Below are positions 1,380 through 31,834 of a stretch of 64,000 nt of DNA, piece after piece. The stretch lies in contig CALHOI010000015.1 of assembly GCA_938035525.1 (NCBI GenBank), positions 1-64,000 of the forward strand. Direction: 5' to 3'. The notes beneath the pieces were generated by a model. The model was not told where the DNA came from and did not search any database. It was given only the letters and a program-made list of their open reading frames with translations. The translations under genes were made by a program, and so were the position numbers. The DNA comes from an uncultured Granulosicoccaceae bacterium (GTDB lineage: Bacteria > Pseudomonadota > Gammaproteobacteria > Granulosicoccales > Granulosicoccaceae). Every line of letters starts with the position of its first letter. Within the stretch, counting starts at the first letter, position 1.

Positions 1380-3029
1380 ATGACAACAATCAGCGGTGGA
1401 CATCTATTAGTAAAAAGTTTGCAGGCTTTGGGTGCAAGCAAGTGTTTTGGTGTGCCCGGAGAAAGTTACCTCGATGTACTTGACGGTCTGCACGACACGC
1501 AAGGTCAGCTCGACTTCGTTTTGTGCCGAAACGAAGGTGGTGCGGCTTTTATGGCTGAGGCCTTTGGTAAGTTAACCGGTCAACCTGGTATATGTATGGT
1601 GACTCGGGGGCCGGGCGCCACTAATGCTTCAATCGGTGTGCACACGGCTATGCAAAATTCCACTCCCTTGTTGTTGTTTGTGGGCCAGGTGGGTACAGAT
1701 CAACAAGAACGCGAAGCTTTCCAGGAAATAAACTACCGGGCTTTTTACGGCTCTATTGCAAAGTGGGTTGTTGAGATAGACGATATCAATAGAATACCCG
1801 AGTTACTTAGTCGTGCCTGGAGCACCGCTTTGTCCGGCCGGCCGGGGCCGGTGGTTGTTGCCTTGCCAGAAAACATGCTCACGTCCCAGTCAAGTGCGCA
1901 GGCTTGTAAACCTATTCGTATTCCTGAGCCTGCTCCCAGCAACGCTGATATTGCCGAAATTGAGCGACGCTTACTGAAGGCGAAACAACCGTTGATTATT
2001 GTTGGTGGTGGTGGATGGAACGACGATGGCCGTAAAGCCATACAGCAGTTTGCTGAACAAAATGCTTTACCTGTGGCTGCCGCATTCAGGTTTAATGATC
2101 TTGTTGATAATCATAGCGGCAACTATGTTGGTGAAGCGGGCGTTGGTATGACACCTCAAATGCAAACAACCATGAAAGCTGCTGATTTAATTTTAGCGAT
2201 TGGTATCCGGTTTGGTGAAATGACCACCGGCGCCTATAGCCTGTTGGAAGTACCTTATGCCTCCAAAACGATTATTCATTTGCATGCTTCAGATCGTGAG
2301 TTGGGTAAAGTTTATGCGGCTGATTTGCCCATTCAAGCTGGTCCAAATCATGCGGCGCGCAGCTTGGCACAGCTTTCGTTAAAGGCAAACTGGCAAAGCT
2401 GGTTGCGTGATTCGCGTGAAAATTACTTAAGTGCTTTTGGTGCACCGCAGCAACCAGGCGATGTCGACATGGTTGCTATCATGGACTACCTGCGTGCCAG
2501 TTTGCCAGACGATGTCATCGTGACCAATGGGGCTGGAAATTTTGCGGTATGGCCAAACAAATTTTTACAATACCGTGCTAGTCAACGATTGTTGGCGCCG
2601 CAAAGTGGGGCAATGGGTTATGGCGTACCGGCAGCGGTCGCGGCCAAGATAGTAGCGCCGGATAAAATGGTTTTGTGTTTTGCCGGTGATGGTGACTTTC
2701 AAATGAATTGTCAGGAGCTGGGGACTGCCATGCAGGCGGGTGCACAGCCAATCATACTCATTTTAAATAACGGCAGCTACGGAACCATTCGTATGCACCA
2801 AGAGCGACATTACCCCGCTCGAGTATCAGCAACCGATTTGCTTAATCCCGATTTTGTCGGTTTGGCCAAAGCATACGGTTTTCATGCCGAAACAGTTGCT
2901 ACTACAAAGCAGTTTGTTCCCGCCTTTGAACGAGCAATAGCATCAAAAAGTGGCGCTGTAATCGAGCTCAAAATTTCTGTTGATGCTATTACACCGCGTC
3001 AAACACTGAGCCAAATTCGCAATAGTTAA
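1380..3029 (+). CDS. Thiamine diphosphate-dependent enzyme, acetolactate synthase-like
   Basis: A 549-residue protein with the three-domain layout of the acetolactate synthase/benzoylformate decarboxylase superfamily. The cofactor-activating glutamate is E52 in RNEGGAAFMAEAFG. The central domain contains a nucleotide-fold segment (IIVGGGGW). The C-terminal ThDP/Mg motif starts at GDGDF and ends about 28 residues later at NN. The family makes or breaks C-C bonds next to a carbonyl (decarboxylation, carboligation). It is unlikely to be the biosynthetic IlvB: no small regulatory subunit is adjacent and the setting is catabolic. A second ThDP enzyme lies 3 kb downstream. Exact substrate unknown. 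Confidence 0.85.
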   Translation: MTTISGGHLLVKSLQALGASKCFGVPGESYLDVLDGLHDTQGQLDFVLCRNEGGAAFMAEAFGKLTGQPGICMVTRGPGATNASIGVHTAMQNSTPLLLFVGQVGTDQQEREAFQEINYRAFYGSIAKWVVEIDDINRIPELLSRAWSTALSGRPGPVVVALPENMLTSQSSAQACKPIRIPEPAPSNADIAEIERRLLKAKQPLIIVGGGGWNDDGRKAIQQFAEQNALPVAAAFRFNDLVDNHSGNYVGEAGVGMTPQMQTTMKAADLILAIGIRFGEMTTGAYSLLEVPYASKTIIHLHASDRELGKVYAADLPIQAGPNHAARSLAQLSLKANWQSWLRDSRENYLSAFGAPQQPGDVDMVAIMDYLRASLPDDVIVTNGAGNFAVWPNKFLQYRASQRLLAPQSGAMGYGVPAAVAAKIVAPDKMVLCFAGDGDFQMNCQELGTAMQAGAQPIILILNNGSYGTIRMHQERHYPARVSATDLLNPDFVGLAKAYGFHAETVATTKQFVPAFERAIASKSGAVIELKISVDAITPRQTLSQIRNS

Positions 3030-3753: not shown

Positions 3754-5115
3754 ATGAGTGACGCGCCAAGCACTTGCTGTGGGCCAGGGTATGCCTCTCC
3801 GACAGAGGCCATGCAAGCACCTCGGGAAAAAATCCTGTACACGATTGCTATTTACGTTGGCACGGGTATCCAGAAGCCTGACTACCTTGCCACGGTCGAC
3901 GCCGACCCCGACAGCTCAACGTATTCACAAGTTATCAGTCGTTGCGAAATGCCCGGTATCGGTGACGAGCTGCATCATATGGGCTGGAATGCTTGTTCAT
4001 CGTGTTTTGAAGACGGCAGCATGGAGCGCAAATACCTGATTGTTCCGGGCGTTCGTAGTTCCAATTTGCACATTGTTGATTGTGGAACCGACCCGCGCAA
4101 CCCAAGCGTGCACAAAGTAATTTCCGGTGACGAAATAAAAGCCAAAACCGATTTGTCGGCACCCCACACGGTTCATTGCCTGGGTTCTGACATTATCATC
4201 TCGATGCTTGGTGACGCCAAGGGCAATGCGCCTGGTGGCTTTTTGCATCTGAACAAAGACTTTGATATCGTTGGTCGATGGGAAAACGATTTAGGTGGTA
4301 TGAAGTTTAACTATGACTTCTGGTACCAGCCTAGACACAATGTGATGGTGTCCAGCGAATGGGCGGCCCCCAATACATTTATGCCTGGTTTTGATTTGGA
4401 AGAAGTCGGGCACCTGAAGTACGGTCGAGAAATTCACTTCTGGGACTTTGAAAAAAAGTGCGTAGAGAATACCGTTTATCTTGGTGAAGATGGTTTGGTG
4501 CCACTGGAAGTCAGATTCCATCATGACCCCGACTCCACACACGGTTTTGTTGGTGCGGCTATGTCATCCAACATTATTCACTGGTACAAAAAAGATCAGG
4601 AATGGATCGTTGAAAAAATCATCGACGTAGAAAACGAAAAGCACCCAGAGTGGCCAATACCATTACCCGGGCTTATCACGGTTATTCTAATTTCAATGGA
4701 TGATCGGTTCTTGTATTTTTGTAATTGGCTGCATGGCGATATTCGCCAGTACGATATAACTGATCCTCACAATCCAGTTATGACTGGGCAAGTGTGGATG
4801 GGTGGTATGTTAAAAAAAGCACCTGTGGTTAATGGCGTTGACATCGCCGGTGGGCCGCAAATGATACAACTGAGTCTTGATGGAAAGCGGCTTTACGTCA
4901 CTACCTCTTTGTTTTCCACTTGGGACAACCAGTTTTATCCAGACATTCGCCATAAAGGCGGCGTTATGTTGATGGTTGATTGTGATACCGATAAAGGTGG
5001 TATGGAAATAAACAAAGACTTTATTGTGAACTTCGGCAATGAACCCAACGGTCCATCGCGATGCCACGAAACCCGGTATCCCGGTGGCGACTGCACTTCT
5101 GATATCTGGCTGTAA
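3754..5115 (+). CDS. mtoX: Methanethiol oxidase, selenium-binding protein SBP56 family
   Basis: A 453-residue homologue of human SELENBP1 and bacterial MtoX. The family oxidises methanethiol to formaldehyde, hydrogen sulfide and hydrogen peroxide, using copper. Family landmarks seen: N-terminal [27 protein letters not shown] with the conserved cysteine pair C81/C84, [27 protein letters not shown], and C-terminal [12 protein letters not shown]. The open frame starts at 3703, but the ATG at 3754 gives the normal family N-terminus. No signal peptide is visible, unlike the periplasmic enzyme described from Hyphomicrobium (as I recall it), so a cytosolic site is likely. It heads a plus-strand run that ends with a DmdA homologue, which supports a role in consuming DMSP-derived methanethiol. 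Confidence 0.9.
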
Positions 5116-5160
5116 CGTGACTAGCGACTACGCTCACTGCTTTGCATAATGGAGTAACAC

Positions 5161-5610
5161 ATGAATCACTCTGAAGAATACCCAGAAGACTATCTGGCTG
5201 GTATTTTGGCCGAGGTCAAGACTATCGCCATGGTCGGTGCAAGCCCAGACCCAACCAAATTCAGTTACGGTGTATTACGTGTGTTGCACGAACAGGGCTA
5301 TAACATGATCCCAGTAAACCCGCGGGAAGCCGGTAACGAGATTCGTGGTTTAACCGTGGTGGCGTCACTGGCTGACATAAAAGAGCCGGTTGATATGGTG
5401 CAAGTGTTTCGAGCCGCCGAAGCCTTACCTGGCGTTGCCCAAGAAGCCATCGATATCGGTGCAAAAGTATTGTGGGGGCAAATAGGGGTGTATCACGAGG
5501 ATGCTGCAAAAATGGCCGAAGCTGCTGGCATGCGCGTTGTCATGGACAGGTGTCCCAAAATCGAATTGTTCAGGCCTTTTTGGAAGCCCAAGTTGAATCA
5601 GGAAATTTGA
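5161..5610 (+). CDS. CoA-binding domain protein (YccU-like)
   Basis: A 149-residue single-domain protein of the CoA_binding_2 family, a Rossmann-like fold related to succinyl-CoA synthetase alpha. The motif IAMVGASPDPTKFSYGVLR near residues 24-42 and VLWGQIGVY near 104-112 are typical. A conserved D-R-C-P segment with a cysteine appears near residue 135. Members may bind CoA, but no reaction is established for the stand-alone form. It follows the methanethiol oxidase gene by 45 bases. Its stop overlaps the ferredoxin start (TGATG), so the two are almost certainly co-translated. The context hints at a CoA thioester or thiol-linked step, which is inference. Confidence 0.85.
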   Translation: MNHSEEYPEDYLAGILAEVKTIAMVGASPDPTKFSYGVLRVLHEQGYNMIPVNPREAGNEIRGLTVVASLADIKEPVDMVQVFRAAEALPGVAQEAIDIGAKVLWGQIGVYHEDAAKMAEAAGMRVVMDRCPKIELFRPFWKPKLNQEI

Positions 5611-5966
5611 TGAGCGACGATTCATCTAAACGCGATGTCGCTCCAATGTATAAAGTCGAGCTTAAAAACGCCGGAGTAACGCTTAGCGTGTCTGCTGAGC
5701 AACCTATTTATCAGGCGGCACTGGAGGCCGGTGTGCAGCTGCCCATTGGTTGTGACTATGGCGGTTGCATTACCTGTGCAGCAAAACTCATCGAAGGCAG
5801 TGTTAGGCAACCGGGTGCTTCAGCTTTAAACAGCCGGCAATCCAAAGCCGGTTACGTGCTGCTGTGTGTTGCTCGACCAAAATCCGATTGCGTTGTAGAG
5901 GAGGGAGTAGAGTCGCATAACGAGCTCTACATGAATCCGTTCACAGGAAAGCTTTCATCCAACTAA
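5610..5966 (+). CDS. Plant-type 2Fe-2S ferredoxin
   Basis: An 118-residue ferredoxin. The four cluster ligands are C48, C53, C56 and C86, spaced C-x4-C-x2-C-x29-C, the standard plant/cyanobacterial pattern. The start ATG at 5610 overlaps the stop of the CoA-binding gene. There is no attached reductase or oxygenase domain, so it is a free electron carrier. In the same operon are methanethiol oxidase, a ThDP enzyme and a DmdA homologue. A ThDP enzyme that passes electrons to ferredoxin would be one use; a partner oxygenase encoded elsewhere is another. The C-terminus NPFTGKL is short and shows no other domain. Confidence 0.9.
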   Translation: MSDDSSKRDVAPMYKVELKNAGVTLSVSAEQPIYQAALEAGVQLPIGCDYGGCITCAAKLIEGSVRQPGASALNSRQSKAGYVLLCVARPKSDCVVEEGVESHNELYMNPFTGKLSSN

Positions 5967-6023
5967 TGTTTGTTTTTTAAATGGGGTCAGTGTGTAACAA
6001 CCCCGCTAAGCTGGGAATTAACT

Positions 6024-7745
6024 ATGAGTGTTCGCGGAGGTGCTTTATTGGCACGAGCGTTTCACGATAAAGGTGTAAAGCAAGTATTCACTTTGAGCGG
6101 TGGATTTTGTAATCCGGCGCTTGAGGGTTTTATGGAATGCCAAATTCCAGTCATAAATGCACCACATGAACAAGTTGCTGGGCACTTGGCCGATGGCTAT
6201 ACACGCGTTACGCGTGAACCGACAGTTTGTCTTGTCGGTCCCGAAGGCTTTGCCAATGCACTGCCGGCCATGATGGAAGCCTGGGGTGAACGCTCACCGG
6301 TCATATTTGTAACCGGTTCCAGTACCTTAAAACGCAAAGGAGCGGGTGGTTTTAAAGAAATCGATGACGTTGCTATTGCAGCGCCGCTTACCAAGCACAG
6401 CATTGAAGTAACCCATGGTGAACGTATACCCGAGTTCGTTGACCGGGCATACAAAATAGCCACTAGCGGATACCCTGGGCCGGTACATTTAAGTGTGCCG
6501 GTTGATATTATGTTCAGCTCTTTCGACGAGATGGTCAGTCGTGAAGAACGCCCATTTGATCACTCACGTAAGTCACCGCCGCGAGCCTGGCCAAATCCAG
6601 ACGACCTGCAACGCGTATTGACAATAATAGCATCGGCCAAAAAACCAGTATTAATAGGTGGTCATGGTGTGTGGTGGTCAGGTGCCGAAAAAAAGCTTGA
6701 ATTGGTTGCCAGGCAGTTGAGCATACCCGTGTTTAATGTGCCTTATCATCAAAAGCTTTTGGGTGAAGATGTCGATGTTTACATGGGCCTGGCCGATGTG
6801 CATCAGTATCACCCCTCTAAAGATGCCCTGCAAGAATCCGACGCGGTGATCATGGTTGGAGCCAGGCTCGACAACCAGATGAATTTTGGTAACCCGCCTT
6901 TTATACCTGCATCAACAACACTGATATGTGTGAATGGCTCCCACGAAGAGCTCGATTTAAATCGCGCAGCCGACGAAATACTATTAAGTGATCCAGGTGC
7001 ATTCTTCGATGCCCTGTTAGCCATGGCCAAAGATAATCAATGGACGCTAAACGCAGACTGGTTTAACGAAAACCGGCGCCGTCGTGGTATTTGGGTTGAA
7101 AAAATGATTGCCGATATACCCGGCAATGCGCAACTTAATGGTGCTATACATCCTTTGCAAGTGGCCATGGATGTGCAAGAGGCCATGGGCGATGAAGACT
7201 GGTTAGTTATCGACGGTGGCAATACGCACTTCTGGTCTGAAATAGCCGTTAATATCGCGGGCTGGCGTGGTCAGAAGCTTGGGAACATATTGCACCCGGG
7301 TACGTTTAGCTTGTTGGGTGTGGGTGTCTCCTTTGCGATTGCTGCAAAAATGAATCACCGTCAAAGCAACGTTGTGTTAATCAGTGGGGACGGGGCGTTT
7401 TTATCAGGTGGCTTGAGCGTTGAAGCGGCTTTTCAGGAAAACCTGCCTATCGTGGTTGTTATCGATAACAACGGTGGACTTGATTGTATTTCTCAACAAC
7501 AGGAGAGGCTGTTTGCAACAGAAACACATTTTGCCACTGATTTTCGTGATATCCCATTTCACTCAATGTTTGAGGGCCTTGGTGGTTATGGCGAGCTGGT
7601 TACAAGCCGAGAGCAACTCATCCCGGCTGTTCAGCGCGCCATCGCCAGCGGTAAAACAGCTTGTGTTAATGTCAAAACAAAAGGTCACATAAGCCCTATT
7701 GTGTTGGCAACAACCGACAAACGCGACAAAGCCTCTATTGAGTAG
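6024..7745 (+). CDS. Thiamine diphosphate-dependent enzyme, acetolactate synthase-like (second copy)
   Basis: A 573-residue ThDP enzyme, clearly diverged from the one at 1380. E49 in APHEQVAGHLADG is the cofactor-activating glutamate. The C-terminal GDGAF ... DNNGG motif binds ThDP and magnesium. A longer frame begins at 5970, but the ATG at 6024 starts directly with the family sequence (SVRGGALLARAF). The general fold resembles acetolactate synthase, 2-hydroxyacyl-CoA lyase and sulfoacetaldehyde acetyltransferase; none of the diagnostic stretches I know for Xsc is present. It lies 57 bases after the ferredoxin and 24 before the HIU-hydrolase-like gene. Reaction unknown; location argues for a step in C1/C3 sulfur or carbonyl metabolism. 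Confidence 0.85.
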   Translation: MSVRGGALLARAFHDKGVKQVFTLSGGFCNPALEGFMECQIPVINAPHEQVAGHLADGYTRVTREPTVCLVGPEGFANALPAMMEAWGERSPVIFVTGSSTLKRKGAGGFKEIDDVAIAAPLTKHSIEVTHGERIPEFVDRAYKIATSGYPGPVHLSVPVDIMFSSFDEMVSREERPFDHSRKSPPRAWPNPDDLQRVLTIIASAKKPVLIGGHGVWWSGAEKKLELVARQLSIPVFNVPYHQKLLGEDVDVYMGLADVHQYHPSKDALQESDAVIMVGARLDNQMNFGNPPFIPASTTLICVNGSHEELDLNRAADEILLSDPGAFFDALLAMAKDNQWTLNADWFNENRRRRGIWVEKMIADIPGNAQLNGAIHPLQVAMDVQEAMGDEDWLVIDGGNTHFWSEIAVNIAGWRGQKLGNILHPGTFSLLGVGVSFAIAAKMNHRQSNVVLISGDGAFLSGGLSVEAAFQENLPIVVVIDNNGGLDCISQQQERLFATETHFATDFRDIPFHSMFEGLGGYGELVTSREQLIPAVQRAIASGKTACVNVKTKGHISPIVLATTDKRDKASIE

Positions 7746-7769
7746 CATTAATCACTGCGGACCATTGTA

Positions 7770-8132
7770 ATGGCAACCATTTCATCTCATGTGCTTGACT
7801 CAGTGACTGGATCTCACGCGGCTGGTATACGTATCTCATGCGTACGTCGTGATAGTGAAGGTGCAACAACAGTGCTGTTTGATAAAAAAGCCTGTGAGCA
7901 GGGCAGGATTAGCGAATCTGTTGACACGACATTGCCCGGTAGTATCGAGTTGGTTTTTCACAGTAAAGATTATTTTGCTCACAGCTCAACTCACAGTTCA
8001 ACTCCCAACAGTGCCCACCACATTGTCAGCGAAGTGGTGGTTCGGTTAGATTTATCAGACGACAGTGGTCACTATCATTGTCCGATGATGTTATCTCCGC
8101 ACTCATACTCTATTTGGTGGTCGGATTCATGA
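7770..8132 (+). CDS. Transthyretin/5-hydroxyisourate hydrolase-like protein with altered C-terminus
   Basis: A 120-residue member of the transthyretin-like family. The N-terminal SSHVLD motif (H7), the arginine in GRI (R46) and H-Y-H-C-P (H101, H103) match catalytic residues of 5-hydroxyisourate hydrolase. The family's C-terminal signature, a terminal Y-R-G-S, is absent: this protein ends I-W-W-S-D-S and is one residue longer there. A loop near residue 72-80 has a small duplication (HSST HSST). No uricase or OHCU decarboxylase is nearby. It is co-translated with the DmdA homologue (ATGA overlap at 8129-8132). It may hydrolyse a different ring or lactone-like substrate; that is inference. Confidence 0.7.
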   Translation: MATISSHVLDSVTGSHAAGIRISCVRRDSEGATTVLFDKKACEQGRISESVDTTLPGSIELVFHSKDYFAHSSTHSSTPNSAHHIVSEVVVRLDLSDDSGHYHCPMMLSPHSYSIWWSDS

Positions 8133-9262
8133 GTGCAGCGGCATCGCCACAACCTGCAAAACTCGCTGTATCAAGACGGCAAAGATCAACTCCTTACACG
8201 CCTCGCATTGAAGCATTGGGTGTCAGCGACTACTCAGTCGTCAATCACACGGTGCTGCCCAAAGGCTTTGGTCGCTCCGTTGAAGAAGACTATTGGCATC
8301 TGCGCGAACACGTTCAGTTGTGGGATGTCAGTTGTCAAAGACAAGTCGAGTTGCACGGGCCTGATGCTGCTCGGTTAGCCCAGCTAATGACGCCGCGTGA
8401 TTTGCGCCGGGCCAAAGTAGGTCAATGCTTTTATGCGCCTGTGGTTGATCAGGCAGCGCGCATGCTAAACGACCCTATCATTTTGAAACTGGCCGACGAT
8501 CACTTTTGGTTCTCGATTGCCGACTCAGATTTGTTGCTATGGGCAAAGGGATTGGCATTGGGTTACGGTATGAATGTCGCTCTTGATGAGCCCGATGTAT
8601 CTCCATTGGCGGTACAAGGCCCCAAATCTGACGATCTCATGGCAACAGTATTTGGCGAGCAAGTCAGAGATATTGCTTTTTTCAACTACAGTAAACTCGA
8701 TTTTCAAGGTCATTCGTTATTGGTGGCGCGCTCTGGATACAGTAAACAAGGCGGGTTTGAGATTTATCTGGATAAGTCATCTTTGGGGTTGTCGTTGTGG
8801 GATACCTTGTGGGATGCAGGGCAGGCGCACAATGTTTTACCGGGTTGTCCTAATTTAATCGAACGGGTAGAAGGGGGGCTTTTATCCTATGGAAACGAAA
8901 TGACTCGTGCCAACAGCCCCTTGGAGTGTGGCCTAGGCGAGTATTGTAGTTTTGACCCAACGCTAAACTACATTGGTAAGCAAGCGTTGCTCAAAGAACA
9001 GCAAGCTGGTCCGCAACGTATTATTCGAGGGGTGTTGTTCGATGGCGATAAAACCCCGCCGTGTGCCAATACCTGGGATTTGCATGTGAGTGGACAATAC
9101 GCAGGCTATATCAGTACGGCTATATGGTCACCGCGTTTAAAACAGAATGTGGCCCTTGGCATGATTGAGCAGGCTTATTGGGATGAGGGTCAGACGCTTA
9201 GTGTGCAGTGCGCAGATGGCACTGAACGAAATGGTGTTGTCAGTTTGTTGCCAATGACATAA
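8129..9262 (+). CDS. dmdA: Dimethylsulfoniopropionate demethylase DmdA homologue (GcvT family)
   Basis: A 377-residue tetrahydrofolate-dependent methyltransferase-fold protein. DmdA moves a methyl group from DMSP to THF, giving methylmercaptopropionate. The N-terminal third follows the SAR11/roseobacter DmdA pattern closely: TPYTPRIEALGVSDYSV, NHTVLPKGFG, EHVQLWDV, RQVELHG, NDPIILKL and SIADSDL. Further on are AVQGPKS, SGYSKQGGFEIYL, and PGCPNLIERVEGGLLSYGN. These fit DmdA better than glycine-cleavage T protein, sarcosine or dimethylglycine dehydrogenases, and the length matches. ATG at 8129 overlaps the preceding stop. DmdB, DmdC and DmdD are not adjacent. The link with methanethiol oxidase in the same run supports the call; clade assignment needs a tree. 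Confidence 0.82.
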   Translation: MSAAASPQPAKLAVSRRQRSTPYTPRIEALGVSDYSVVNHTVLPKGFGRSVEEDYWHLREHVQLWDVSCQRQVELHGPDAARLAQLMTPRDLRRAKVGQCFYAPVVDQAARMLNDPIILKLADDHFWFSIADSDLLLWAKGLALGYGMNVALDEPDVSPLAVQGPKSDDLMATVFGEQVRDIAFFNYSKLDFQGHSLLVARSGYSKQGGFEIYLDKSSLGLSLWDTLWDAGQAHNVLPGCPNLIERVEGGLLSYGNEMTRANSPLECGLGEYCSFDPTLNYIGKQALLKEQQAGPQRIIRGVLFDGDKTPPCANTWDLHVSGQYAGYISTAIWSPRLKQNVALGMIEQAYWDEGQTLSVQCADGTERNGVVSLLPMT

Positions 9263-10421: not shown

Positions 10422-11384
10422 ATGAGTGAAGAACTTAATTACAAACAACTGATAGATGATGAAGTATGGGCCTTCATAGAAAAAACAGAGCAAAGTTACC
10501 CAGAAGATACTGTCAGCAAAACGGTTGCAGAGCAGCGTGAGTTATACAACGCCATGTGTAAATCATTTGCCAGCGAGCGTCCAATTGGCGTGACGGTCGT
10601 CGATGACCTGGTTGAGTCTGCCGAAGGTCATATTCCTGTTCGTCGCTACTTCCAAACAGAATCATTACCCTCTGTGTTAATCATATACATGCACGGGGGC
10701 GGGTTTGTTGTGGGTGATCTTGATAGTCACGATAGCGTCTGCGCCGAGCTATGCGATGCGACTGGGTATGCTGTAACCGCCATCGACTATCGTTTAGCGC
10801 CTGAGCACAAGCATCCCGCTGCGTTTAGTGATTGCTTGGCGGTTACCTTATCGGAGGCAGTCCGTGTTGCAGGGGCTTCCATTTTGCTTTGCGGTGATAG
10901 CGCAGGTGGTAATCTGTGCGCCGCAGTTTCTCATGCATTGCGCGCAATACCTAAGGCCCCGAAAATTGATGGACAGGTTTTGTTATACCCAGCGCTCGGT
11001 GGCGATATGAACCAAGGATCTTATCTACAACATGCAAATGCGCCGTTACTAAGCCTCGATGAAATCAAGCAATACATTAGCGCGCGTTTTGACGGTGCGG
11101 AACCCTTTGGTGATTCGACGGCCGCTCCGTTGCACGACACTGATTTTACGAATTTACCGCCCACTGTTGTTTTCAGTGCGCAATGCGATCCTTTATGCGA
11201 CGACGGTAAACAGTACTGTAAGGCCATTGAAAAAGCAGGTGGGGAGGCGCTGTCGATAGTGGACTCTGGTCTGGTGCACGGTCATGTCCGAGCGCGCCAC
11301 ATCAGCACCAAAGCGGCCGAGAGCTTCAGTGCGGTGATTAATACCCTAGAGAATCTGGCGCAAACACCCGATAAAACTATATGA
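10422..11384 (+). CDS. Alpha/beta hydrolase, hormone-sensitive lipase-like esterase
   Basis: A 320-residue carboxylesterase of the HSL (bacterial family IV) type. The oxyanion-hole motif HGGGF is at about residue 90 and the nucleophile motif GDSAGGN at about residue 160. The acid and histidine are likely in SAQCDPLCDDG (about 255) and G-L-V-H-G-H near 287. No signal peptide, so cytosolic. It probably hydrolyses short-chain esters. Its last eight bases overlap the end of the convergent CocE-type gene. The start ATG at 10422 has AAGGAA some distance upstream. Confidence 0.85.
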   Translation: MSEELNYKQLIDDEVWAFIEKTEQSYPEDTVSKTVAEQRELYNAMCKSFASERPIGVTVVDDLVESAEGHIPVRRYFQTESLPSVLIIYMHGGGFVVGDLDSHDSVCAELCDATGYAVTAIDYRLAPEHKHPAAFSDCLAVTLSEAVRVAGASILLCGDSAGGNLCAAVSHALRAIPKAPKIDGQVLLYPALGGDMNQGSYLQHANAPLLSLDEIKQYISARFDGAEPFGDSTAAPLHDTDFTNLPPTVVFSAQCDPLCDDGKQYCKAIEKAGGEALSIVDSGLVHGHVRARHISTKAAESFSAVINTLENLAQTPDKTI

Positions 11385-13470
11385 ACTTGCGTGGAATATT
11401 GTCGTTATAGATTTGCTCAAAAATAAGCTCATCATTGTTATAGGCTTTGAGTGAGGCAGACAAGTAAAAATATGCCTTGTCGCAGCTGATGCTCACACAT
11501 GAATCGGTTTTCCAATTCCAGTCATCACGGCCACCAGTTTGCTGCCAATGTATGTTACCGCGTGCCGATAACGGGTCGTCTGGCTTTATTGACCAGCGTT
11601 CGTTAGTAATGCTACCGCTGCGTAGGTCATGGGTTAAATCGCGGTTTTCTCCAAAGTCGTTTTCAATTAATGTGACCTGCTCATTGCTTGCTTCATCGAC
11701 TAATACTTTCCTTGACGAGCTAGCTTCTCGAAGTACTTCAGTTTGCCAGCCAGCGGCGGTAACTGGTGGTTCGAACTGGACGGGTAGGGAGTGTTCCGTT
11801 GTTCTTACAGGCAAAGTCATGCTGCCTGCACTGATGCTTAACGTGACCGTTTGCGGGGATGGCCATATAAAGGGCCAACATGCTGTTGACAATGCCAATC
11901 GCAGAGAATGACCCACGGGAACACGATAAGCAATTTGGTCTAGCGCAAATTCGATACTAAATGAGTTTCCAGGTTGTATTAAGGAAGGGTGCTCAAACGA
12001 TTCTCTGTGTGCCAGATTCAGCATCCCTGATGTGATATGAGCAGAGCTGCCATCGGGTCTTAGGTCGCATAGTCGGGCAACAATGAGCCCCATTGGTTTA
12101 TCGGCACTGAGTGTTAACTTTACGGTGGGAGCGCCAATGATGGTCATTGGCTCGCTCAGTACTGATGTGTCTGCGCAGCAGCTGAGCAAATCATCGGCTA
12201 ATTGGTCATCTGGGAATTCGGGTCCGTAAGAAAACGGGAAATATTCACCCGATGTTTTGCCACAGTCTTGCGCAGACGATACCGAAAACTTGCACGCGCC
12301 TGCAACATCCGAGAGCATTAAATCATTGTCTTTGTCGCTGGCCTTATCGACGTTGCTATCTTTGTTTCGATTGTTAGCAGGTTGATCCTCGCAAACGCTG
12401 ATGCTTTTATTAGCGTTGCTACGCTCGCCAACGATATGCAATTGTTTTTCATTTATGTTTTCAGATGGCCAGTGCTGTTCTCCAACCCATTCACCTGGGC
12501 GTTCAGGCAACCAGCGCTTAGGCTTCACGCTATCCATTACCCACACGCGATAAGCTGGGTCATCTTCAACACCGGTGTCGGCGTTTTTCAGCCATCTGTC
12601 CCACCATCGTAACGATTCTTGTAAAAATCCGATGGCTGGTGTAGGTGCCGCGTAGTGTGGGTATTTATGTATCCAAGGTCCCACAATGCCTTTAACCGGT
12701 GAAGATAAATTTGTAACCAGGTGACTGATAGTATTGCGATAACCATCATGCCAGCCACCCACTGATAAAACGGCTGCTTTAATAGCTGTGTAGTCTTCGC
12801 ACACCGAACCATGCTGCCAATAGGCGTCTCTTTTTTGATGGCGCATCCAGGTGGATGCTAAAAAAGGCATGTTGTTCAAACGCATCTTCCACATGTCCAT
12901 CCAGGACTCACCGACTAACGCCGGATCGGGTGGTCTGGACGAATACGACAACATGTTGGCTGCCCACCCGATGTTTTCAGTCAGTAAACAGCCACCCTTA
13001 TAGTGAATATCATCAGCAAAGCGATCAACCGTAGAGCACACACTGATAACCGCTTTTAAAGCCGGGGGTTGCAGGGCCGCAACTTGCAGGCTGTTAAATC
13101 CACCCCAGGAAATACCCATCATGCCCACACTACCGCTGCACCAGGATTGCTCGGTTGCCCATTGAATGACATTGCAAGCGTCTTGTAACTCCTGCGGCGT
13201 GTATTCGTCGTCCATTAAACCCTGTGACTCGCCGTTTCCTCGCATGTCCACTCTTATGCAGGCATAACCTCGCGCTGCAATGTAAGGATGACCCAACTCA
13301 TCACGATGCACAGTGCCATCACGTTTGCGATAGGGCAGGTGTTCCACAATGGCTGGCACGGGCGCATTATCAGCATTTTTCGGCATCCAGATTCGAGCTG
13401 ACAAACGACACCCATCGGGCGTCACAATGCCAACGTCAGGTAAGTCGATGATGTCCAGTACATGAGTCAT
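11377..13470 (-). CDS. CocE/NonD family hydrolase (X-Pro dipeptidyl-peptidase S15 type)
   Basis: A 697-residue alpha/beta hydrolase related to cocaine esterase and X-prolyl dipeptidyl acyl aminopeptidases. Near the N-terminus are the family segments V-E-H-L-P-Y-R-K and R-G-N-G-E-S. The nucleophile elbow is GISWGG, serine at about residue 120. The second half has the beta-jellyroll XPD C-terminal domain (VGHSLRLALS near 545). A polar, low-complexity insert (many N, D and K) lies around residues 365-390. Without a signal peptide it is probably cytosolic. It hydrolyses esters, amides or peptides; the substrate is not evident. Confidence 0.85.
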   Translation of the reverse strand: MTHVLDIIDLPDVGIVTPDGCRLSARIWMPKNADNAPVPAIVEHLPYRKRDGTVHRDELGHPYIAARGYACIRVDMRGNGESQGLMDDEYTPQELQDACNVIQWATEQSWCSGSVGMMGISWGGFNSLQVAALQPPALKAVISVCSTVDRFADDIHYKGGCLLTENIGWAANMLSYSSRPPDPALVGESWMDMWKMRLNNMPFLASTWMRHQKRDAYWQHGSVCEDYTAIKAAVLSVGGWHDGYRNTISHLVTNLSSPVKGIVGPWIHKYPHYAAPTPAIGFLQESLRWWDRWLKNADTGVEDDPAYRVWVMDSVKPKRWLPERPGEWVGEQHWPSENINEKQLHIVGERSNANKSISVCEDQPANNRNKDSNVDKASDKDNDLMLSDVAGACKFSVSSAQDCGKTSGEYFPFSYGPEFPDDQLADDLLSCCADTSVLSEPMTIIGAPTVKLTLSADKPMGLIVARLCDLRPDGSSAHITSGMLNLAHRESFEHPSLIQPGNSFSIEFALDQIAYRVPVGHSLRLALSTACWPFIWPSPQTVTLSISAGSMTLPVRTTEHSLPVQFEPPVTAAGWQTEVLREASSSRKVLVDEASNEQVTLIENDFGENRDLTHDLRSGSITNERWSIKPDDPLSARGNIHWQQTGGRDDWNWKTDSCVSISCDKAYFYLSASLKAYNNDELIFEQIYNDNIPRKFI

Positions 13471-13615: not shown

Positions 13616-15235
13616 TTAGGCAAACCACCAACGCTCGGCAATCTTGTTGCCATCATTAATCCAGTTTGCCGCAACGTTTTCACCGTGGGTCAATTTCTTT
13701 GAATGCGCATGAATGTAGTTTGCCCACATCGCAACAATCGCTCCGCCGTCATCATGCAGCAATTGTTGGGCTTCAAAGTATTGTGCCTTGCGCTTGGTGT
13801 CATCCGTTTCGGAACGAGCACTGACAACCACTTCGTTAAAGCGTTTGGCGTCATCGGTTTCTTTCCAGCTGGTGTCGTTCCATTCTGTATCAGCGGTGTA
13901 TGCAGCGGAATACATCCAGTCTTGGGTGGGTCGACCACCCCAATAGCAGGCGCACCAGCCTTTCTTGTTCCAAACATTTGACCAATAGCCATCGCTGGGC
14001 TCTCTAACCACTTCAATCTCAATGCCAGCCTGTTTAGCTGATGCTGCAATTAATTGTGCCGCGTCAACTGCGCCTGCAAAAGCAGCATCGGAGGCGGACA
14101 ATTGGATTGGTCCAGAGTGGCCGGATTTCTTATAGTGCTCTGCGGCCTTTTCTGGGTCGAATTCACGTTGCGGAATATCGGTATTCAAAAACGGCATGGC
14201 ACTGGATACTGGAATATCATTGCCAGCCAGTCCGTGACCTAATAAAATTTTGTCCACCAGTTCCTGGCGATTAATGGCGTATTTCAACGCTAATCTCAAA
14301 TCGCGATTACCAAACGGTTCCACATCTAAACGCATGGGGAATGTGTAGTGTTGTGTGCCAGTGGTTTCTAATATGTTCAGATTGGGTGCACGAGCAAGCA
14401 GTGCAACGGTTTTGGGATCCACATTGTCAATTACATCGACATCACCGTTCATTATTGCGTTTTGACGAGCAGTAACATCAAGAATAGCCAACAGTTCGAT
14501 TTCGTCAAAGTGTGCACGGCCCTCTTTAAAATAGTTAGGGTTTCGCTTTGACACAGCACGAACGCCAGGTTCAAAATTCTCCAGCACGTAGCCACCGGTG
14601 CCAATGCCAGATAAGGCATCGATCTTTCCGTCTTTTGAGGGTTGGATAATCAGGTGATAATCGCTAACAATGTATGGAAAATCGGCGTTTCCACTATCGA
14701 GTTCAAAGATAATGCGGTTGTCACCATCTTTCTTCATGGATTTGATTGCGGTCAGTAATCCTTTTGCCGCAGATTTTGAATTTTCGTCACGGTGATAGTT
14801 GTACGTAGCAATGACATCATCAGCGGTTAAGGTTTTGCCATTATGAAATTCGACACCTTGGCGTAAATTAAACACCCATGATGAAGCGCCGTCGGCAGGT
14901 TCGAAACTTTCAGCCAGTTCACTTATTAATTGGCCGTCGCTGTCAACTTCAGTAAGCTGATTACCGTAGGTGTAGTGCAGTGCTTGCGTAAAGCCGTTTT
15001 CCGATGTGCCGGGGTCCAGAGTATCGGTTGTTGAACCGTATCCAATACCTTGTCGTAGTTTTCCACCTTTTACCGGCGTTGCCGCCATTGCGTTTGTGGC
15101 CATTGACATAGCCATGGGCAGGGTTGCGCCAGCGGCCAGGGCTGTCATGATGAACTGGCGGCGTGATACGTTTCCGGCCGTCAGGCGGCTGGCCTGATTT
15201 AAAATAACGTCTTTTTTCAATGTACTGTTCTCCAT
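13616..15235 (-). CDS. ABC transporter substrate-binding protein, oligopeptide/dipeptide (SBP_bac_5) family
   Basis: A 539-residue periplasmic binding protein of the DppA/OppA class. The N-terminus has a twin-arginine signal (SRRQFIMTALAAG, about residues 24-36) followed by a hydrophobic stretch and an AMA cleavage site near residue 51, so export by Tat is likely. Mature-domain landmarks include FNLRQGVEFHNGKTLTADDV near 125 and the E-P-F-G-N-R-D-L-R-L-A region near 300. It is divergent from the two permeases and the ATPase of the same importer, 271 bases away, and ends at a strong terminator. The ligand could be a peptide, opine or sugar derivative. Confidence 0.9.
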   Translation of the reverse strand: MENSTLKKDVILNQASRLTAGNVSRRQFIMTALAAGATLPMAMSMATNAMAATPVKGGKLRQGIGYGSTTDTLDPGTSENGFTQALHYTYGNQLTEVDSDGQLISELAESFEPADGASSWVFNLRQGVEFHNGKTLTADDVIATYNYHRDENSKSAAKGLLTAIKSMKKDGDNRIIFELDSGNADFPYIVSDYHLIIQPSKDGKIDALSGIGTGGYVLENFEPGVRAVSKRNPNYFKEGRAHFDEIELLAILDVTARQNAIMNGDVDVIDNVDPKTVALLARAPNLNILETTGTQHYTFPMRLDVEPFGNRDLRLALKYAINRQELVDKILLGHGLAGNDIPVSSAMPFLNTDIPQREFDPEKAAEHYKKSGHSGPIQLSASDAAFAGAVDAAQLIAASAKQAGIEIEVVREPSDGYWSNVWNKKGWCACYWGGRPTQDWMYSAAYTADTEWNDTSWKETDDAKRFNEVVVSARSETDDTKRKAQYFEAQQLLHDDGGAIVAMWANYIHAHSKKLTHGENVAANWINDGNKIAERWWFA

Positions 15236-15506: not shown

Positions 15507-16487
15507 TTGCATCCTGTTCTAATCACTATTATCAAACGCTTAGGCTTAGGACTGGTTACGCTTTTTGTCGTGTCGGCAATCATTTTCAGCTCAGTGACCA
15601 TGTTGCCGGGTGATTTTGGCGAAGCCGTACTGGGTCAGGCTGCTACCGAAGAAACAGTGGCTGCGTTTCGAGAAGAGCTGGGTTTAGATAAACCGGCCTG
15701 GCAGCGTTATTTTAGTTGGGCAGGGTCGGTATTAAAAGGTGATCTGGGAACGTCATTTTCCGGCCGATCAGCATCTGGTGTAGATCGTTCACGCTCGGTG
15801 GCAGAAATGATCGCGCCGCGCTTGAAGAACACGCTGTTTTTAGCCGGTGTCACCGCGATAATTGCAGTTCCTTTGGCCATCCTTTTGGGTTTGTCTGCAG
15901 CACTTTACAGAAATACGCTGTATGACCGCACCGTCAATGTGACAACGTTAACTACTATTTCGATGCCTGAATTTTTTGTGGCGTACGTATTGATATTACT
16001 GTTGTCTTCACTCTATAAAGTCTTTCCTTCGCTGGCAACGGTAGACCCGGACATGTTATTGGGTGAGCGCCTCAATAGAATAGCGTTACCCGCAATTACT
16101 TTAACTCTGGTTATCGTCGCTCACATGATGCGCATGACCAGGGCGGCCATCATTAATTTACTGGCTAGTCCTTACATAGAAATGGCGCGACTAAAAGGTG
16201 CTTCGCGTTCAGAAATAATTTTAAAGCATGCTTTGCCCAACGCGTGGGCGCCGATTGCCACGGTGGTCGCATTCAATCTGGCTTACCTGGTGGTAGGGGT
16301 CGTGGTGGTAGAAGTCGTGTTTGTTTATCCAGGGATAGGTCAGCTAATGGTTGATTCGGTATCATCGCGCGACATACCAGTAGTGCAAGCCTGTGCACTT
16401 ATTTTTGCCGGTACTTATATTTTGCTTAATCTAATTGCAGATGTGATTGGTATTGCCACTAACCCCAGGTTGCTACATCCACGATGA
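15507..16487 (+). CDS. ABC transporter permease, DppB-like
   Basis: A 326-residue inner-membrane permease with six predicted membrane segments. The first lies at residues 10-30 with the family motif LPGDFGEAVLG just after it; the EAA loop reads E-M-A-R-L-K-G-A-S near residue 230. The reading frame is closed by a TAG at 15492, so initiation must be at the TTG at 15507, an unusual start, or further in. Its stop overlaps the next permease (ATGA at 16484). It works with the substrate-binding protein encoded divergently at 13616. Confidence 0.9.
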   Translation: MHPVLITIIKRLGLGLVTLFVVSAIIFSSVTMLPGDFGEAVLGQAATEETVAAFREELGLDKPAWQRYFSWAGSVLKGDLGTSFSGRSASGVDRSRSVAEMIAPRLKNTLFLAGVTAIIAVPLAILLGLSAALYRNTLYDRTVNVTTLTTISMPEFFVAYVLILLLSSLYKVFPSLATVDPDMLLGERLNRIALPAITLTLVIVAHMMRMTRAAIINLLASPYIEMARLKGASRSEIILKHALPNAWAPIATVVAFNLAYLVVGVVVVEVVFVYPGIGQLMVDSVSSRDIPVVQACALIFAGTYILLNLIADVIGIATNPRLLHPR

Positions 16488-17413
16488 CTGATTCTAATCA
16501 AACGCCGTCGGGATATTCCGCATCTGCAGAAGTGGGTGCAGTGCGTAAGCGCCGTAGCAAGGCAGAGCGATGGTGGCTGGCTTTAAAAAAAGCGCCACTC
16601 TCGGCCTGGTTTGGCATGATTGTTATAGGCGGGTACCTTATAGTTGCTTTGTTCGCACCGCTTATTGCGCCGTATGGCGAAGCACAGATTTTCCCGACAC
16701 CCTATGCCCCTTGGGATGACACACATAGATTCGGTACCGATCAAATTGGTAGAGATATTTATACGCGTTTAATCTATGGTGCAAGAAACACAATGGGTAT
16801 TGCGTTAGTGACGACCTTTCTGTCTTTTTTAATTGGTGGTTCTTTGGGCTTGGTTGCAGCCATTAATCGATCATGGCTTGATCAATTACTGAGTCGCACA
16901 ACCGATGTTTTTATGGCTATCCCTGGGCTCATCTTTGCACTGATGCTGCTTTCTATTTTCAAACCCAGTGTATTGAGTTTAATTTTTATTATTGCGGTAC
17001 TCGATAGCACACGGGTTTTTCGGCTTACGCGCTCTGTGGCTATTAATGTGGCCGTTATGGACTATGTAGAAGCTGCGAAACTTCGTGGAGAAAAGCTAGC
17101 CTGGGTGATGCGGCGTGAGATTTTACCCAATATCATGCCTCCTTTGGTTGCCGAGTTTGGGTTGCGTTTTTCGTTTGTGTTTTTAACGATTGCCGCCCTG
17201 TCTTTTTTAGGGGTCGGTATCCAACCGCCAACGGCAGACTGGGGCTCAATGGTCAGAGAAAATGCGTCACTGATACAGTTCGCCCAATATGATTTGAAAG
17301 CCGGACTAACGCCTTTATTGCCAGCTGCAGCTATTGGCTTGCTAACCGTAGCGGTTAACTTTGTGGTTGACTGGTTTTTGCATAAATCCAGCGGATTGCG
17401 CGATGAGCATTAG
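16484..17413 (+). CDS. ABC transporter permease, DppC-like
   Basis: A 309-residue partner permease. The N-terminal 35 residues are basic and cytoplasmic, followed by a first membrane helix at about 40-60. The motif H-R-F-G-T-D-Q-I-G-R-D-I-Y-T-R near residue 85 is characteristic of the OppC/DppC group. The EAA loop is V-E-A-A-K-L-R-G-E near 200. Four-base overlap with the upstream permease indicates translational coupling. The ATPase gene follows after 15 bases. Confidence 0.9.
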   Translation: MTDSNQTPSGYSASAEVGAVRKRRSKAERWWLALKKAPLSAWFGMIVIGGYLIVALFAPLIAPYGEAQIFPTPYAPWDDTHRFGTDQIGRDIYTRLIYGARNTMGIALVTTFLSFLIGGSLGLVAAINRSWLDQLLSRTTDVFMAIPGLIFALMLLSIFKPSVLSLIFIIAVLDSTRVFRLTRSVAINVAVMDYVEAAKLRGEKLAWVMRREILPNIMPPLVAEFGLRFSFVFLTIAALSFLGVGIQPPTADWGSMVRENASLIQFAQYDLKAGLTPLLPAAAIGLLTVAVNFVVDWFLHKSSGLRDEH

Positions 17414-17428
17414 ACATGGGTATCAGGC

Positions 17429-19033
17429 ATGAGTGCCAGTGATGACGTTTTGCTAGAGATGCGCGATGTGCACATTGAAGGGTTCTCTGACGAGCAATGG
17501 CACCCAATCATAAAAGGCGTTGATCTTGTCCTGAAGCGTGGGCAGATTATGGGTTTAATTGGCGAATCTGGAGCAGGCAAATCCACGTTGGGTTTGGCTG
17601 CCATGGGGTTTGCCAGAGCAGGCTGTCGATTCACCCAGGGTAGCGTCACATTTGACGGCACAAATTTGTTGTCATTAAAAGATTCCCAGAAGCGAAAATT
17701 ATGGGGAACCCGAATTGCGTATGTGGCGCAATCAGCCGCGGCCGCATTTAACCCGGCGCATCGTTTAATAGATCAAACTATTGAGTCGGCAAATCGAGCG
17801 CAAGTTAGGCCGGAAAGCGAGTCTCGACAAGATGCCGTTGATCTGTTCCAGTCTTTAAACCTGCCGGACGCAGGTAATATTGGTTCTCGGTATCCACATC
17901 AAGTTTCGGGTGGTCAGTTGCAGCGCGTCATGACAGCGATGGCTATTTCAGCAAGGCCTGATCTGATTATTTTTGATGAGCCAACAACGGCGTTGGATGT
18001 CACCACCCAAGTAGAGGTGCTGGCCGCGATGCGCGATATGGTAGAAAAACACAATACGGCAGCTATTTACATCACACACGATTTAGCAGTGGTGGCTCAA
18101 ATGGCGGATGTTATAAAAGTGTTGCGTTACGGAGAAGAAGTAGAAGAAGCAGAAACGCGCACAATGCTGAACTCACCTAAACAAGCTTATACACGTTCAT
18201 TGTGGTCAGTAAGGTCGTTGGAAAAACCGCAGGAAAAGGGTGATGATATTGTGTTGTCCATGCAAGGTATTCATGCTGGCTATGGCAAGGTCAGAGTTTT
18301 ACATGGTATCGATATCAATTTACCTCGGGGTAAAACAGTGGCCGTTGTGGGCGAGTCAGGTTCAGGAAAATCAACCGCCGCGCGAGTGATCACCGGATTG
18401 CTACCCCCAAGCGAGGGTGCTGTACATTTTAATGGTCATCCCTTGCCTGCAGCACTTAAAGATCGCAGCACAGAGCAGCTTCGCCAAATTCAGATGATCT
18501 ACCAAATGGCAGACACTGCCATGAATCCAAGGCAAACGGTAGAGGAAATAATAGGCCGGCCTTTGGAATTTTATCATCAACTGACTGGTCGAGAGAAAGA
18601 GGCGCGTATTGCACAGTTGTTGGAAATGATAGAGCTCGATGAGACCTTTCTAGATCGTTTGCCTTCAGAATTATCGGGAGGGCAGAAGCAACGTATCTGT
18701 ATTGCGCGGGCGTTGGCGGCAAATCCTGATGTCATTATTTGCGACGAAGTGACATCAGCGCTTGATCAAATTGTGCAAGAGGGCATTTTAAAGTTATTGC
18801 TGCGCTTACAAAAAGAATTCAACATCAGTTACCTGTTTATTACACACGACATTGCTACTGTTAAAGCCATCTCAGATGAAATCGTTGTGATGTACAACGG
18901 TAAGGTGGTAGAGCAGGGGCTTAAAAACGACATACTGCAGCCTCCCCATCCAGAATACACAGAGTTACTTTTATCATCGGTACCAGAGATGGACCCCGAT
19001 TGGCTAACGCAGCTACTGGCGTCCAGAACCTAA
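17429..19033 (+). CDS. Fused two-domain ABC ATPase of oligopeptide importer (DppD-DppF type)
   Basis: A 534-residue protein carrying both ATPase halves that are usually separate. Half one: Walker A GESGAGKST (about residue 48), signature VSGGQLQRV, Walker B LIIFDEPTTALD. Half two: Walker A GESGSGKST (about 310), signature LSGGQKQRI, Walker B VIICDEVTSALD. The junction lies near residue 270. It powers the importer formed with the two permeases just upstream. Fusion of the pair is common in Proteobacteria. The gene ends in a short tandem repeat shared with the intergenic space. Confidence 0.92.
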   Translation: MSASDDVLLEMRDVHIEGFSDEQWHPIIKGVDLVLKRGQIMGLIGESGAGKSTLGLAAMGFARAGCRFTQGSVTFDGTNLLSLKDSQKRKLWGTRIAYVAQSAAAAFNPAHRLIDQTIESANRAQVRPESESRQDAVDLFQSLNLPDAGNIGSRYPHQVSGGQLQRVMTAMAISARPDLIIFDEPTTALDVTTQVEVLAAMRDMVEKHNTAAIYITHDLAVVAQMADVIKVLRYGEEVEEAETRTMLNSPKQAYTRSLWSVRSLEKPQEKGDDIVLSMQGIHAGYGKVRVLHGIDINLPRGKTVAVVGESGSGKSTAARVITGLLPPSEGAVHFNGHPLPAALKDRSTEQLRQIQMIYQMADTAMNPRQTVEEIIGRPLEFYHQLTGREKEARIAQLLEMIELDETFLDRLPSELSGGQKQRICIARALAANPDVIICDEVTSALDQIVQEGILKLLLRLQKEFNISYLFITHDIATVKAISDEIVVMYNGKVVEQGLKNDILQPPHPEYTELLLSSVPEMDPDWLTQLLASRT

Positions 19034-23914: not shown

Positions 23915-24063
23915 CGCGTAGTTGGTTCATAAATGGAAACGCCAAATTATCCCACACAAGTGTTATCTACGATGTCGCATAAAGGCCAGTTGTGTGACAG
24001 AAATACCTTTGGTTTGAAACAATGTAGGGCTACAATCGTGGTATACACGCGGCAGACTCGAAC

Positions 24064-24076
24064 AGGAGGTGCTCCT
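24064..24076 (+). promoter_or_regulatory. Strong ribosome binding site of dddP, within a small inverted repeat
   Basis: AGGAGG at 24064-24069 lies seven bases before the ATG at 24077 and decides the start of the DMSP lyase gene. AGGAG (24064-24068) and CTCCT (24072-24076) are complementary around a three-base loop, so the site could fold into a small hairpin. Whether that matters for translation is unknown. Confidence 0.7.
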
Positions 24077-29334: not shown

Positions 29335-29374
29335 GCGGGTTCAGTCCGCCAGACAAACACAGGTATAAGCCGAA

Positions 29375-31006: not shown

Positions 31007-31165
31007 CCTGTTATTCTACATCGTGCAGAACGTTCGCATTTGCGCAACCAACTTACTGACATCAATTTACTGTCCTCATATGGCATCATCTTGGAGACCA
31101 CCGGGCGCTAATTCTACTTCTATGAGATATGGGCAGTTATCCTGTGTGAACAAGAGTCAGTCAAA

Positions 31166-31756: not shown

Positions 31757-31834
31757 TATTGCGTAGTTATCGATATAGCCGCGTATGCTAACAAGCGAAT
31801 TTCTTTCGGTTTTAACAAGAGTCATTTTCTAATT

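Follow-up and report, generated by a model that had tools for sequence, protein, structure and literature searches.

A sister clade of the dimethylsulfoniopropionate demethylase DmdA with its own gene partners, joined to an SBP56 family gene in an operon of a seaweed-associated Granulosicoccaceae bacterium

The gene dmdA is the one by which ocean surveys estimate bacterial demethylation of dimethylsulfoniopropionate (DMSP), and methanethiol is oxidized to formaldehyde, sulfide, and peroxide by MtoX and SELENBP1. In R. pomeroyi, methanethiol oxidase is reported to play a role in the metabolism of methanethiol and DMSP (PMC5739008). The SAR92 DmdAs, which are 35-40% identical to reference DmdAs, act on DMSP, and a GcvT-like protein of strain H455 does not (PMC10746254). 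Relatives of DmdA with no assigned function have been reported as a 'non-DmdA' sister group (PMC7487153), as have demethylase paralogues with no assigned substrate in SAR11 (PMC3160333). Dimethylsulfonioacetate is also converted to methanethiol by R. pomeroyi, although it is reportedly not a substrate of DmdA (PMC7221440). Here, we describe a six-gene operon that begins with an SBP56 family gene and ends with a DmdA-like gene in a 64,000-nucleotide stretch of DNA (hereafter the window; contig C15, CALHOI010000015.1) from an uncultured Granulosicoccaceae bacterium, whose genome comprises 3.6 Mb in 114 contigs and is 88% complete. The carrier is a seaweed-associated marine bacterium that we take to belong to Granulosicoccus, which is known from kelp (PMC9238374). 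An earlier note on this DNA had read the operon as the union of a methanethiol oxidase with a DMSP demethylase. It is clear from our results that the link between the two families recurs in other genomes and that the DmdA-like protein is a member of a large sister clade of canonical DmdA, and its identity as a DMSP demethylase is not supported.

The operon consists of six plus-strand genes (Table 1) encoding, in order, an SBP56 protein, a coenzyme A (CoA)-binding protein, a ferredoxin, a thiamine diphosphate (ThDP)-dependent enzyme, a transthyretin (TTR)-like protein, and the DmdA-like protein. They are separated by a 45-base spacer, a 1-base overlap, spacers of 57 and 24 bases, and a 4-base overlap, and both the gene content and this spacing, as previously described, were confirmed by reading the sequence and by family typing of all six genes. 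A promoter consensus scan returned 7 promoter-like sites against a mean of 8.9 in shuffled sequence and thus no excess. The same order on one strand, without the ThDP gene, was found in two further metagenome-assembled genomes (MAGs) of the genus: the SBP56, CoA-binding, ferredoxin, TTR, and DmdA genes are contiguous in G010 (L074), and in G020 (L072/L091), approximately 1 kb with a 232-amino-acid open reading frame (ORF) on the opposite strand lies between the ferredoxin and TTR genes.

The last three genes, encoding the ThDP enzyme, the TTR-like protein, and the DmdA-like protein, form a triad that extends far beyond Granulosicoccus. In a scan of public genomes with a DmdA alignment, from which the best 80 of 581 relatives were taken, ThDP and TTR genes stood upstream of the DmdA gene, on the same strand and in order, at 74 loci. 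The exceptions were two Granulosicoccaceae loci with TTR only (L089 and L091, with the ThDP gene elsewhere in G004 and G020), two at contig ends (L092 and L157), one with the ThDP-TTR pair on the other strand, 2.6 kb off (L127), and one with neither gene in its stretch (L136). Given this recurrence, together with the order kept in the Granulosicoccus MAGs, the operon goes beyond chance, and a chance neighborhood of the six genes was ruled out. ThDP or TTR genes stood beside canonical DmdA at none of 19 loci, two of which (L172 and L173) were classed as canonical by score alone, compared with 14 of 14 triad loci, with flanks of mostly at most 1.5 kb per side. Among 398 Pseudomonadota genomes drawn evenly, with the 3-4 best candidates per genome scored, the ThDP family (E 1e-200) was present in two, that of the window and G427. 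DmdA matches above 600 bits occurred only in these two, adjacent to the ThDP gene in both, and the gap of 349 bases between them in G427 leaves room for a TTR gene. None of the 19 other sampled genomes with a DmdA family match (E 1e-100) had a ThDP enzyme of this family at E 1e-200. A search of plasmid records for the ThDP enzyme found no match at E 1e-120. One record labelled Anaerolineales (L094) carries a triad DmdA 66% identical to that of the window, by transfer or mis-binning.

The commonest further partner of the triad is a flavin mononucleotide (FMN) 2-hydroxyacid dehydrogenase, found at 52 of the 80 loci and directly upstream of the ThDP gene at 51 of the 78 with a clustered ThDP gene. 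The usual order in Pelagibacteraceae is PepE-like, FMN dehydrogenase, ThDP, TTR, DmdA, and thiolase, and an FMN dehydrogenase also lies near the ThDP and TTR genes at one Granulosicoccaceae locus (L031). In Pelagibius, a second ThDP-TTR pair (L251:8279-11901) adjoins genes for a flavin adenine dinucleotide (FAD)-linked oxidase and a transporter of TctABC look, with no DmdA in the stretch read, and the ThDP-TTR pair may work without demethylation.

The DmdA-like protein resembles DMSP demethylase DmdA in its GcvT fold family, its length, its folate and core residues, and its passing of the NCBIfam DmdA cut-off, but differs from it in its separate clade, its ThDP and TTR partners, its residues V38 and K45, and in the lack of any DmdB, DmdC, or DmdD match within the window. 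Six other triad-clade proteins scanned with the same model (PRK12486) scored 532-561 bits and canonical-clade DmdAs of roseobacter and SAR11 genomes 539-668 bits, and as these ranges overlap, the model fails to split the subfamilies. The window protein, at 550 bits, shares 45% identity with P. ubique DmdA, 51% with P. inhibens DmdA, and up to 57% with other canonical-clade DmdAs, compared with 54% and 60% with triad proteins from a SAR11 and a Rhodobacteraceae genome. Our main tree held 73 rows, of which 48 were triad-clade, 10 roseobacter-type (including P. inhibens), 5 SAR11 (including P. ubique DmdA 3TFH), and 10 other Granulosicoccaceae paralogues. It was derived from an 87-row tree by removing 14 rows (L172, a long-branch GcvT-like row, and 12 close relatives of kept rows), L152 and L173 having been left out of the larger tree as too short; 46 of the 80 scan loci were put to trees, 45 were usable, and 41 are in the 73-row tree. 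The triad clade forms one side of a branch with support of 100/98, and its 48 rows include L136, L127, and L092, mentioned above for their deviating contexts. The roseobacter-type and SAR11 DmdAs form separate clades with 100/100 each. A tree placing the protein outside DmdA had been named in the earlier note as telling against a DMSP demethylase, and this is in part what we found: the window protein groups with neither of the two clades into which our reference DmdAs fall, one containing the P. ubique enzyme and the other the P. inhibens plasmid DmdA (PGA1_RS19020, taken as the gene deleted in PMC12366255). This placement is relative to these references and not to R. pomeroyi SPO1913, a SAR92 DmdA, or the named clades A-E as such. 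V38 and K45 are invariant in 48 of 48 triad rows, compared with Tyr and Ala, Ser, or Thr at these positions in the 15 canonical rows. P. ubique W197 was rejected as a diagnostic residue, as Tyr stands at this position in 9 of 10 roseobacter DmdAs too.

The SBP56 protein is a candidate methanethiol oxidase. It carries HH at positions 74-75 and a CSSC motif at 81, and scores 401 bits against Sulfolobus 2ECE and 137 bits against the NCBIfam MtoX model (NF052453), below the cut-off of 650. From its similar N-terminal motifs, we take it to resemble the cytosolic SELENBP1 type, although it is bacterial and stands in an operon with a demethylase gene, unlike the human protein. With MtoX of Hyphomicrobium sp. 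VS it shares the SBP56 family, the HH pair, and the CSSC motif, but it begins at an ATG with no leader recognized by eye, and its gene neighbors are the CoA-binding protein and the ferredoxin, whereas those of MtoX are SCO1 and mauG (PMC5739008). These three genes form a near-constant unit: over 28 contexts, clustering grouped a CoA_binding_2 gene with SBP56 in 27 and a Fer2 ferredoxin gene in 25. The one context in which the former did not cluster is the window itself, where the gene is present but was missed by ORF picking. Further neighbors were rhodanese-like genes (10 contexts, with the domain typed at one locus), an IclR-type regulator recognized by sequence (10), and thiolase-like genes (6). 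The window's genome carries another SBP56 gene (G000:C111:19616-20992), with 43% identity to that of the operon.

The linkage of SBP56 to the DmdA family is not confined to the operon. Conserved synteny, proposed in the earlier note as a check, was found in 3 Granulosicoccus MAGs, and another 50 triad genomes included 5 with SBP56 close to the triad. SBP56 of at least 70% identity is present in 26 of these 50, and the five in which it lies near the triad (L117, L124, L140, L147, and L154) compare with an expectation of 0.16 (20 kb in 3.2 Mb) for the 26 genomes having both. L140, L147, and L154 have one arrangement and more neighbors in common. The arrangements otherwise vary over several lineages: SBP56 lies behind the FMN dehydrogenase in divergent orientation, behind DmdA in convergent orientation, or divergently from the ThDP gene, and in Granulosicoccus all genes point the same way. 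A second DmdA-like subfamily also has SBP56 next to it, at L235 and, judging from coordinates, in G033 and G035, and in Pelagibius approximately 6 kb separate SBP56 from the second ThDP-TTR pair. Among genomes of the family, SBP56 at 85% identity or more is present in 9 of the 11 that have the triad DmdA and in 5 of the 25 that do not (p 0.0008, with two partial matches among those counted and the genomes being related to one another), and at 70% identity the counts are 9 of 11 and 14 of 25, which is not significant (p 0.13).

Both of the enzymes placed between the SBP56 unit and DmdA are set apart from their described relatives. The ThDP enzyme shares three ThDP domains with 2-hydroxyacyl-CoA lyase, benzaldehyde lyase, and oxalyl-CoA decarboxylase but belongs to a highly conserved family of its own, with a mean column identity of 74% over 21 sequences. 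It falls below the NCBIfam cut-off for each of 25 families listed (of 50), reaching 219 of 600 bits for 2-hydroxyacyl-CoA lyase and 215 of 557 for oxalyl-CoA decarboxylase, and its closest solved relatives are 8vzc and the formolase 4qpz. Its structure model has a predicted local distance difference test (pLDDT) value of 71. Glu49 and a GDG...NN stretch, which we take to be the ThDP-enzyme motifs, are invariant in these 21 sequences. Glyoxylate carboligase (Gcl) is not known to have that Glu, and this assignment was set aside as the Glu is present. The TTR-like protein has the fold of 5-hydroxyisourate (HIU) hydrolase and transthyretin, with a pLDDT of 92 for its model and HIU hydrolase 4q14 as the best PDB match (TM score 0.80), and it keeps His7, Arg46, and His103, as do 21 of 21 sequences. 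It reaches 69 bits against the cut-off of 87 for TIGR02962 (5-hydroxyisourate hydrolase), and its C-terminus reads W-x-S instead of YRGS, which is present in 0 of 73 relatives. Twelve family genomes have this TTR type, and 11 of them, including that of the window, contain a second, weaker TTR family match, which is absent from G020. Given the lack of the YRGS end and this second match, the TTR-like protein is probably a paralogue with a different role.

Our leading interpretation, to which we give slightly less than an even chance, is that the operon serves a route by which a methylated onium acid is demethylated and demethiolated, the substrate not being DMSP but most probably a dimethylsulfonio acid. 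What we observed is the operon itself, a clade apart from canonical DmdA, the ThDP and TTR linkage, the coexistence with canonical DmdA described below, and the SBP56 linkage, and from these we infer every reaction of the route. Judging by its family and conserved residues, the DmdA-like enzyme would move one methyl group to tetrahydrofolate (THF), yielding 5-methyl-THF. The route would include a 2-hydroxy or 2-oxo acid stage, in many relatives presumably prepared by an FMN or FAD 2-hydroxyacid dehydrogenase, and the gene order suggests that the ThDP enzyme, with the TTR-like protein, would cleave or decarboxylate this acid. The methanethiol released would then be oxidized by SBP56, together with the ferredoxin and the CoA-binding protein, yielding formaldehyde, sulfide, and peroxide. 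A sulfonium substrate is favored because of the SBP56 linkage and because of L123, where the triad stands next to one DmdB-like and one further DmdA-like gene (L123:518-6737); the L123 record is labelled Sulfurimonas and may be a mis-binned contig. As a 2-hydroxy acid, 4-dimethylsulfonio-2-hydroxybutyrate would fit the dehydrogenase partner, and dimethylsulfonioacetate is of interest since R. pomeroyi makes methanethiol from it and DmdA reportedly does not accept it. A broader claim, possible but in our view rather unlikely, is that the triad constitutes a dedicated pathway for a non-DMSP dimethylsulfonio acid such as these two in SAR11, SAR116, roseobacters, and seaweed-associated gammaproteobacteria, which would place a TTR-fold enzyme in sulfur metabolism.

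Several observations weigh against a dimethylsulfonio acid as the substrate. The folate and core residues compared are the same as in canonical DmdA, with S205, Q207, E211, Y213, Y102, N114, D115, and R246 common to the window protein and all or nearly all canonical rows; as these are shared and W197 is not diagnostic, no residue proves another substrate. Activity on DMSP is possible because the SAR92 DmdAs, which are more divergent, are functional (PMC10746254). No second DmdA over the cut-off was found in the window's genome, at 88% completeness, and the DMSP lyase DddP is encoded 15 kb from the operon on the same contig. No DmdB match was found in the stretches around four other DmdA paralogues of the family (L080, L081, L083, and L088), nor in that around the canonical DmdA of G024 (L069), and from the latter, dmdB beside dmdA is not universal even for canonical genes. 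In the window, no FMN dehydrogenase stands beside the ThDP gene, and clustering found none at the same-family loci L025, L026, L030, L090, L093, L134, and L135. Of the 50 triad genomes, 22 lack an SBP56 match and 2 more have only a distant or partial one, and methanethiol thus need not be a general product. We know of no sulfonium chemistry that gives the TTR-like protein a role.

The alternative that survives best, unlikely though it seems to us, is that the protein is a true DMSP demethylase making methylmercaptopropionate from DMSP, with DmdB- and DmdC-like genes elsewhere finishing the path and SBP56 removing the methanethiol. The NCBIfam cut-off passed, the identity of 45%, 51%, and up to 57% to canonical-clade DmdAs, and the DMSP activity of the divergent SAR92 enzymes (PMC10746254) are all consistent with it, as are DddP within the window, the DmdB-like (48%) and DmdC-like (40%) proteins elsewhere in the genome, and an R. 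pomeroyi mtoX mutant that is said, as an unpublished result, to release more methanethiol on DMSP (PMC5739008). However, the protein belongs to a separate clade with near-constant partners of its own, and canonical DmdA is also present in 15 of the 22 triad genomes searched (14 placed in the 87-row tree and 1 by score), seven of which are SAR11 genomes of 1.0-1.3 Mb. The other 7 comprised 2 with an unplaceable truncated match and 5 with no other match over the cut-off. The DmdB, DmdC, and DmdD context also argues against a DMSP demethylase. Beyond their lack in the window, a strong DmdB-like gene (53%) stood at only 1 of the 80 triad loci (L123) and a DmdC-like gene (40%) at 2 (L131 and L133), with weaker matches at seven more. 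The DmdB-like gene of the genus sits with another DmdA clade, formed by the paralogues L076, L077, L078, L079, and L087 (99/95 in the 87-row tree). Each of these adjoins a DmdB-like ligase with 49-53% identity to P. inhibens DmdB, and all five have a second neighbor in common, typed in L076 as a 3-hydroxyacyl-CoA dehydrogenase/hydratase (3HCDH-ECH fusion). G004, G010, and G014 hold both this DmdB-linked cluster and the window's DmdA type. By its gene content, the paralogue clade is itself a candidate DMSP demethylation cluster of the genus.

We consider it improbable that the triad instead demethylates a quaternary ammonium compound, such as a betaine that passes through a 2-hydroxy or 2-oxo acid, with SBP56 nearby for other reasons, e.g., thiol disposal in one-carbon metabolism. 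The 22 triad genomes with no SBP56 match would fit such a substrate, as would the varying transporters beside the loci and the presence of the triad in Comamonadaceae, one record of which is Limnohabitans-like and so probably freshwater. MttB-like genes near 8 loci, one of them typed and below its cut-off, would likewise fit a quaternary amine and count against a sulfonium. On the other side stand the several arrangements in which SBP56 lies near the triad, its position by the second DmdA-like subfamily (L235, G033, and G035), and the L123 triad beside DmdB-like and second DmdA-like genes. That the SBP56 unit and the TTR and DmdA genes are mere neighbors in Granulosicoccus with no common function is very improbable, for although G009, G015, G021, and G029 have triads with no SBP56 in the 19 kb read, SBP56 frequently stands among neighbors of its own (IclR-like, rhodanese), and G020 has its 1-kb gap, the same order and strand recur in three MAGs, other arrangements occur elsewhere, and SBP56 tracks the triad DmdA within the family at 85% identity, if not at 70%.

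If the triad clade acts on a compound other than DMSP, estimates of DMSP demethylation based on dmdA may be inflated, and were the dimethylsulfonio acid interpretation true, some of the genes that surveys score as 'dmdA' would not encode a DMSP demethylase. In that case, the triad could supply missing enzymes for the methanethiol that bacteria release from non-DMSP dimethylsulfonio acids, and the operon would offer defined genes for the unexplained release from dimethylsulfonioacetate. The recurrent unit of SBP56, CoA-binding protein, and ferredoxin is also a handle on the function of cytosolic SBP56 in bacteria. A partial literature search, by title and abstract, found no description of the ThDP-TTR-DmdA cluster or its link to SBP56. 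The 'non-DmdA' clades are likewise DmdA relatives noted alongside DmdA, and the likeness is one of description, ThDP and TTR partners being unmentioned in the portion of that paper considered here (PMC7487153).

Beyond the operon, the window encodes an ABC transporter of peptide/opine type (Table 1), which is a candidate importer. Its relatives, with 85-90% identity, adjoin the triad in L026, and transporter genes of this look were present at 21-25 of 85 loci. DddP is not part of the operon. Over 24 genomes of the genus, DddP scoring approximately 870 bits or more was found in 8 of the 9 that have the triad DmdA and in 2 of the 15 that do not, with 4 of these 15 exceeding the cut-off, and in genus genomes besides that of the window it lies on other contigs than the triad.

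Table 1. Genes of the operon and selected neighbors in the window
Feature	Position	Strand	Basis and remarks
SBP56 family protein, candidate methanethiol oxidase	3754-5115	+	Pfam SBP56, 699 bits (cut-off 34)
CoA_binding_2 (YccU-type) protein	5161-5610	+	Pfam, 137 bits
Plant-type [2Fe-2S] ferredoxin	5610-5966	+	Pfam Fer2, 54 bits
ThDP-dependent enzyme, unnamed family	6024-7745	+	Three TPP domains in Pfam
TTR/HIUase family protein	7770-8132	+	Pfam Transthyretin, 68 bits
GcvT/DmdA family protein, predicted THF-dependent demethylase type	8129-9262	+	NCBIfam PRK12486, 550 bits (cut-off 410)
CocE/NonD family hydrolase, possibly accessory	11377-13470	-	65% identical gene near triad in G021; common with L026
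Peptide/opine-type ATP-binding cassette (ABC) transporter, binding protein	13616-15235	-	By look; no NCBIfam match at E 1e-60
ABC transporter permeases	15507-16487 and 16484-17413	+	By look
ABC transporter double ATPase	17429-19033	+	Typed by family model
DMSP lyase DddP	23933-25555		NF043017, 883 bits (cut-off 600)
Cystathionine gamma-synthase family protein	22736-23914		677 bits (cut-off 600); divergent from DddP
Second ThDP enzyme (PRK08199 family)	1380-3029		Upstream of operon
Tripartite ATP-independent periplasmic (TRAP) fused permease, PehA/sulfatase-like protein, DoeA-like M24 protein	26971-33010		All on one strand

The cystathionine gamma-synthase family protein beside DddP is a possible partner in sulfur assimilation. 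The ThDP enzyme encoded upstream of the operon is different from that of the triad, and a relative is encoded immediately upstream of the corresponding operon genes in G010 and approximately 14 kb upstream in G020.

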